The position numbers and the translations under genes are program-made. A DNA stretch of 54,860 nt from a virus. This document shows positions 29,747 through 29,818 of this stretch, piece after piece; positions within the stretch are counted from its first letter, which is position 1, and each line of letters starts with the position of its first letter. Where the stretch lies: IMG/VR virus record IMGVR_UViG_3300018041_000008, positions 1 through 54,860 of that record; one strand, written 5' to 3'. The notes below the pieces were generated by a model. That model was not told the DNA's origin and did not search any database. It saw nothing but the letters and a program-made list of their open reading frames with translations.

Positions 29747-29818
29747 TTACTTGTTCATTACGTAAAGTGTAACTTCAAATCCAAATCTCATCTCTGTTGC
29801 GTGAGGTTTCGTCCACAT
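29747..29818 (-). CDS. pqqA: PqqA-like PQQ precursor peptide (23 aa)
   Basis: A 23-residue peptide starting MWTKP and ending MNK, with the core RFGFEVTLY. The Glu15 and Tyr19 spacing (E-x3-Y) is that of the residues joined by PqqE when pyrroloquinoline quinone is built from PqqA; length (22-24) and the N-terminal W-x-K-P also match, as in Klebsiella PqqA (MWKKP, LEVTLY). The ATG has a strong AAGGAG. It stands alone with a 178-base leader upstream and a UUCG terminator downstream. No PqqB, C, D or E is present, so host enzymes would be needed. The assignment is by motif from memory of the family. Confidence 0.8.
   Translation of the reverse strand: [23 protein letters not shown]

Follow-up and report, generated by a model that had tools for sequence, protein, structure and literature searches.

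A predicted orphan PqqA gene, common in methylophages, lies in a T4-like virus behind a structured RNA element shared with OM43 hosts

Introduction

Since PQQ biosynthesis consumes one PqqA peptide for every PQQ made, additional solitary pqqA copies are a natural route to a larger supply. Methylophilaceae hosts hold 3-12 copies of pqqA and a single pqqBCDE (PMC4109929). One PQQ producer has five pqqA copies, and the two that are strongly expressed include a solitary one (PMC9851590). PqqA need not be limiting, because a rise in pqqE also accompanied higher PQQ in the same study.

Viral PqqA has a precedent in the Lake Baikal virus populations VP_266 and VP_139, reported in 2020 with PqqA and methanol dehydrogenase. 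PqqA is encoded by VP_266, and as in the locus studied here it lies in a T4-like Methylophilaceae virus and was read as an auxiliary metabolic gene (PMC7678222). The same paper states that phage P19250A encodes none of its auxiliary metabolic genes, whereas we find that P19250A does carry pqqA. A 2026 reservoir study lists pqqA among viral genes (PMC13188868). In the papers on Melnitz and MEP401/402, the terms searched returned no phage pqqA. Cis-acting RNAs are also known from these systems, as a c-di-GMP riboswitch precedes pqqA in Methylophaga (PMC12530212) and a glutamine riboswitch precedes ssrA in Melnitz (PMC9004378). Our literature search turned up no PQQ riboswitch. Nor did it return the RNA element, palindrome and intron described below, or the wide occurrence of pqqA among methylophages, with most subscription journals and preprints lying outside that search. 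The first-pass annotation of this locus could not say whether a phage PqqA had been reported. Phage PqqA itself was already known from Lake Baikal, and with respect to the papers searched the apparently new features are its wide occurrence, the RNA, the operator-like motif and the intron. The RNA element had been overlooked by that annotation.

Results

The stretch of DNA analyzed here, referred to as the window, is a linear virus record of 54,860 bases and represents a fragment of a T4-like virus. T4-type genes encode DNA polymerase, UvsX, the clamp loader (31378-32316, minus strand, our synteny anchor), portal, major head protein and tail sheath. The closest named relative is the OM43 phage Melnitz (portal 55%, clamp loader 60%). 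The pqqA open reading frame occupies 72 bases at 29747-29818 on the minus strand (29818 to 29747), with 23 codons and a stop. The first-pass annotation had proposed a 23-codon PqqA gene here with the strand unstated, and both profiles that it had suggested running exceed their cut-offs, with 36.2 bits for TIGR02107 (E 3.8e-9, cut-off 20) and 37.4 bits for PF08042 (E 2.3e-9, cut-off 21.1). The plus-strand translation of the same interval (LLVHYVKCN...) matched no PqqA profile and was dropped. The peptide falls within the PqqA size of about 20-30 residues and contains Glu15 and Tyr19, the pair that PqqE joins in known PqqA. It has its own ribosome-binding site, a Shine-Dalgarno AAGGAG at 29826-29831 (minus strand, 29831 to 29826). 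A single PqqA match was found in the whole record, and tblastn detected no PqqB, PqqC, PqqD or PqqE encoded in the window, in line with the earlier statement that no other pqq gene is present. The peptide had no PHROG family, and a search of solved structures returned one chance match only.

Downstream of pqqA, an intrinsic terminator at 29698-29725 (minus strand, 29725 to 29698) combines a 13-pair stem region, a UUCG loop and a T tail, with a hairpin energy of -16.2 kcal/mol and a z-score of -3.8. The proposal that the gene forms its own transcription unit is thus favored by the terminator and by relatives with pqqA in opposite orientation and a shared operator, but no promoter was seen in the window. 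A sigma-70 promoter scan of the window gave nothing above chance, and a late-promoter motif showed a modest excess only (8/30 against 2.7). Next to this region, RegA is encoded at 30201-30629. A ribosomal protein S21 gene at 29306-29572 (minus strand; PF01165, 58 bits) lacks an ATG, GTG or TTG start; the sequence reads ...AAGGAGAAGT-ATC-ATA-GCT, leaving ATC or ATA as the putative start codon.

Phage PqqA is concentrated in viruses of methylotrophs. A tblastn survey of 50,697 phage records with two different PqqA queries recovered only methylophages, one uncultured spring-water podovirus and two contigs labeled "Acinetobacter phage"; the second query, a distant one, returned an identical list of carriers. 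The "Acinetobacter phage" PqqA was rejected as a phage gene, as the one of the two contigs that was opened is host chromosome with a pqqABCDE operon. This contig (CAKLQF020000010.1, "Acinetobacter phage MD-2021a") also carries ppk and looks like bacterial chromosome rather than phage. Nine isolates infecting Methylophilales or Methylophilaceae carry pqqA (Melnitz four times, Venkman, MEP301, MEP401, MEP402 and P19250A), which agrees with the methylotroph host suggested earlier. The named phages MEP431-434, Venkman EXVC038S, MG-MtP1 and RSA-MfP1, which are listed in the taxonomy, did not turn up among the records searched. In each genome of five isolate lineages, and in the podovirus, TIGR02107 detects a single copy, and none of 14 control genomes has a match at E <= 0.01. 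None of the phage copies in the deposited regions opened is annotated as PqqA, as the first-pass annotation had anticipated for so short a gene. In Melnitz and ctXG6705, a "hypothetical" coding sequence has been called across pqqA on the opposite strand. The hypothetical proteins antisense to pqqA at MZ577097.1 76100-76195 and MW202481.1 2067-2195 are likely wrong-strand calls.

Carriage of pqqA in methylophages is common and not universal. A degenerate DNA pattern found the gene in at least 120 IMG/VR contigs. It is present in five of seven long Venkman-like contigs and only 2/16 long MEP402-like contigs, many of the contigs counted being fragments. In a clamp-loader tree of T4-like relatives, carriers and non-carriers are intermixed (7 changes compared to 12.5 in shuffles), and many relatives have no pqqA at the site used in the window. 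The carriers most closely related to the window have the same peptide at the same locus; their pqqA shares its strand with the clamp loader gene and lies 1.1-2.4 kb downstream of it. Outside of these relatives the surroundings vary, forming 27 flank clusters, and pqqA is antisense to both neighbors in 44/154 loci. Terminator-like hairpins follow 52 of 118 distinct phage genes, compared to 2 in shuffles. In the small methylophages L246, L247, L248 and L251, pqqA adjoins YqaJ/ERF/exonuclease recombination genes, on the opposite strand in three. Orphan pqqA also occurs on two large viral contigs of 356,312 bases (L020) and 163,543 bases (L115), and L020 has a weak PqqE-like radical-SAM match below the cut-off.

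No pqqB-E lies beside pqqA in 128 viral loci. Across 50 whole viral records, neither PqqE nor a PQQ-alcohol dehydrogenase was found over cut-off (three records have weak radical-SAM matches below it), and the idea that methanol dehydrogenase or PqqE travels with pqqA was abandoned on these records. Purifying selection is indicated by a pN/pS of 0.16 over all codons in an unbiased set of 10 distinct genes from phages found via the clamp loader alone; the value in the larger, pattern-found set is 0.32 on pattern-free codons. As a host-type gene among T4-like structural genes, present in isolates and under such selection, pqqA has the sequence features of an auxiliary metabolic gene. Lys4 is replaced by Thr or Ser in L255, L257, L270, L271, L247 and L248, and is therefore probably not needed.

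Some phage copies of pqqA are interrupted by a group I intron. Nine frames linked to the RNA element described below stop after MWTTPSATEMRFGLI or similar (L559, L574, L582, L586, L605, L612, L613, L616 and L623). Both exons are present in seven of the nine contigs, and there the stop traces to a group I intron, 231-278 nt in length. Matches to RF00028 score 84.9 bits for L586, 65.3 for L574 and 65.0 for L616. The 278-nt form in L612 has no RF00028 match up to E 0.01 and was called from its identical ends and exons. The intron begins after GGG-T and ends in G, inside codon 14 and beside Glu15. Joining the exons yields the full 23-residue PqqA in 7/7 cases and restores Glu15-Tyr19, with the predicted spliced product reaching 41.3 bits for PF08042. 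With an intron accounting for these "truncated" pqqA in the seven contigs that have both exons, a reading as broken genes or decoys was dropped. An HNH/NUMOD3 reading frame lies just downstream in L612, with similar frames in L582, L613 and L616. The RF00028 scores and the HNH/NUMOD3 frame in the one examined resemble known phage group I introns with HNH endonucleases, yet those in pqqA interrupt a gene of only 23 codons, beside the codon for Glu15. Possibly, pqqA is among the shortest protein genes known with a group I intron. Introns of this kind generally insert into genes that are conserved across a phage population, and the intron thus fits a common and expressed pqqA.

Directly upstream of pqqA, covariance modeling and covariation identify a structured RNA element at 29832-29896 on the minus strand (CUCAAGAAAGACCUUUGUUAGUAAUAACAUCUCUUUCGAUAUGAGUUUAUAUAAAUUUUAUAAAC, 29896 to 29832), whose 3' end meets the Shine-Dalgarno. 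From the 5' end, CUCAA is followed by P1, an internal loop, the P2 hairpin, GAUAUG (consensus GANCUG) and the P3 hairpin. P1 pairs GAAAGA (29891-29886) with UCUUUC (29865-29860) and encloses P2 (UGUUA with UAACA), together spanning 29860-29891 on the minus strand. P3 (GUUUAUA...UAUAAAC, 29832-29852, minus strand) is located immediately 5' of the Shine-Dalgarno. The consensus in relatives is CUCAAG-NNNGA-CYU-(hairpin)-UC-UCNNN-Y-GANCUG, to which many add a second hairpin reaching up to the Shine-Dalgarno. Some folds pair the Shine-Dalgarno GAG with the 5' CUC. Among 22 sequences, P1 is formed in 97% of alignment cells, with 35 two-sided changes compared to 10.4 in shuffles and a covariation score of 0.739, compared to 0.256 +/- 0.035 in shuffles and no more than 0.159 when the partners are slid. 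P2 forms 79 pairs compared to 31.9 +/- 4.3 in shuffled loops. The covariance model scores the window at 64.1 bits (E 6.2e-11), the window sequence being part of the model. It also recovers 17 further phage loci, all directly before pqqA, and a weak match in L112 (26 bits). Rfam gave no match at gathering threshold and only noise in E-value mode, with no match up to E 1 for the host element. The window element thereby differs from the c-di-GMP and glutamine riboswitch families, which are included in Rfam. The element was not found in the cultured phage isolates searched.

The strongest test of the association with pqqA was a blind scan of all IMG/VR for an element-only pattern without reference to the gene, which returned 102 contigs in all. 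The three inner P1 pairs, which the pattern left free, are all formed in 101 of these and in 46/47 distinct sequences, compared to a mean of 10.0 and a maximum of 19 in 2000 shuffles of the 3' strands. An intact pqqA follows in 86/102, nearly always at 30-58 nt. Four loci are cut off at the contig edge, of which two show a pqqA start; two encode the variant MW[VE]KPxATELRWGFEICMYVANR; nine encode the early-stopping pqqA discussed above; and one (L543, P1 unpaired) is a chance match.

The element also occurs in host genomes, in only 5/60 Methylophilaceae, with one copy each before pqqA. These are OM43-type genomes of 1.2-1.4 Mb, which again points to a methylotroph host. Five host loci entered the covariance model (L128, L129, L164, L236 and L241), L164 lying in one of the five element-bearing genomes. 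All five loci are tandem pqqA pairs about 200 nt apart, the first copy, behind the RNA element, starting with MWTQP... and the second with MWTKP.... A tandem pair is also present in the virus L630.

A second upstream feature is the motif TAATGATTTT, often extended to the palindrome CTAATGATTTTCATTAG. Of 160 distinct regions upstream of phage pqqA, 37 contain it (0.72 expected), as do 15 of 140 host regions (0.64 expected), often with a TATAAT-like box downstream. Four OM43 genomes have a single copy of its 16-base form TAATGATTTTNNNTAG and a fifth has two; in each of the five, one copy lies upstream of pqqA. The palindrome may thus represent an operator-like motif common to phage and host pqqA. 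In the window, TTAATACTTTTAACTAG at 29962-29978 (minus strand) is a possible degenerate copy, a weak resemblance recognized by eye.

Discussion

Comparative analysis shows a predicted complete PqqA, encoded as an orphan without pqqB-E in several unrelated methylophage lineages and, in the window, located behind an RNA that also precedes pqqA in OM43. The window pqqA is a real phage gene in which purifying selection maintains the PQQ precursor peptide, and it likely adds substrate for host PQQ synthesis. Hosts show a comparable arrangement. Genomes with Methylophilaceae-type loci hold 2-12 pqqA copies in 10/10 cases, pqqB-E lie alongside only 22/120 host loci, and most copies are solitary. PqqA supply looks dosage-limited, since hosts hold 2-12 pqqA but one pqqBCDE. 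The solitary host peptides are one 23-residue sequence or very close variants. The window copy shares their length, sequence, Glu15-x3-Tyr19 pair and solitary setting with a terminator, but is viral, has T4-like neighbors and shows 82% DNA identity to the nearest host gene seen. We infer that phages raise PqqA supply as hosts do, through solitary copies. The Lake Baikal case differs in being one metagenomic population with a methanol dehydrogenase, as here the gene is an orphan in many lineages with no dehydrogenase in 50 records.

In the proposed mechanism, an infecting phage would add PqqA, which is spent at one molecule per PQQ. Host PqqD would present the phage peptide, PqqE would join Glu15 to Tyr19, and host PqqB and PqqC would complete PQQ. 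The extra PQQ could keep methanol dehydrogenase (XoxF) running while the cell makes phage. The 5' RNA might act on translation by switching access to the Shine-Dalgarno, and phage and host pqqA might be tuned by one signal, for which feedback from PQQ or a related metabolite is the simplest candidate.

A conserved, covarying structure 5' of a metabolic gene is what a riboswitch would look like, with ligand binding as a candidate property. We tentatively propose a new riboswitch class, known from marine OM43 and viruses only, which would sense PQQ or a pathway metabolite and control pqqA translation. If phages copied both pqqA and the switch, they would plug into the host's PQQ feedback loop. 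PQQ feedback is our simplest guess for the ligand. The upstream RNA could instead be a protein site, for a host regulator or phage RegA, or a stability element rather than a metabolite switch, a somewhat doubtful alternative that would leave the reading of pqqA unaffected. The RegA gene next door and the 3' end abutting the Shine-Dalgarno would suit such a site, but OM43 hosts also have the element before pqqA, and no role for RegA is expected there. A short element with conserved unpaired bases fits a ligand or a protein alike.

For the peptide, supply of substrate is by far the best reading of the sequence data. A decoy that occupies PqqD or PqqE, lowers host PQQ and stops methanol oxidation would account for the conserved leader residues, and unspliced intron-bearing transcripts would yield leader-only peptides of 15-16 residues. 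However, a decoy could afford to lose the cross-linked pair. Glu15 and Tyr19 had been built into the first IMG/VR pattern, so the scan was repeated with both codons unconstrained, and both residues were present in 120/120 contigs among the matches listed. Two refuting outcomes named by the first-pass annotation, a missing profile match and the loss of Glu and Tyr in related phages, were not observed. The invariant Glu and Tyr, and their restoration by splicing, make a decoy improbable.

A functionless passenger, carried as host DNA through an attachment site or recent transfer, is more improbable still and already largely refuted. The phage peptide is close to host PqqA, hosts hold many copies, and the small serine recombinase encoded by MEP301 makes a site-specific origin possible for that phage. 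No tyrosine integrase was found in 50 records, compared to 14/14 positive controls, and no phage gene is identical to a host gene (median best DNA identity 88%, window 82%), which led us to reject a prophage attachment-site remnant. Conserved position, purifying selection and the genes' own terminators also oppose a passenger. A chance short open reading frame resembling PqqA can be dismissed despite its 23 codons, given E of about 1e-9, conservation, the Shine-Dalgarno and the terminator.

Few metabolic genes are smaller than pqqA, yet it ranks with the most common ones in the methylophages surveyed here, and the deposited phage genomes that were inspected either omit it or have a gene call on the opposite strand. 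The RNA element provides a concrete 65-nt candidate PQQ riboswitch with strong covariation and only one target gene in the sequences searched. OM43 is an important marine methylotroph, and the substrate-supply reading offers a direct and testable link between viral infection and its PQQ-dependent methanol oxidation. Because RNA-preceded pqqA is shared with OM43 hosts, the virus probably both feeds and taps the methanol oxidation of its host.
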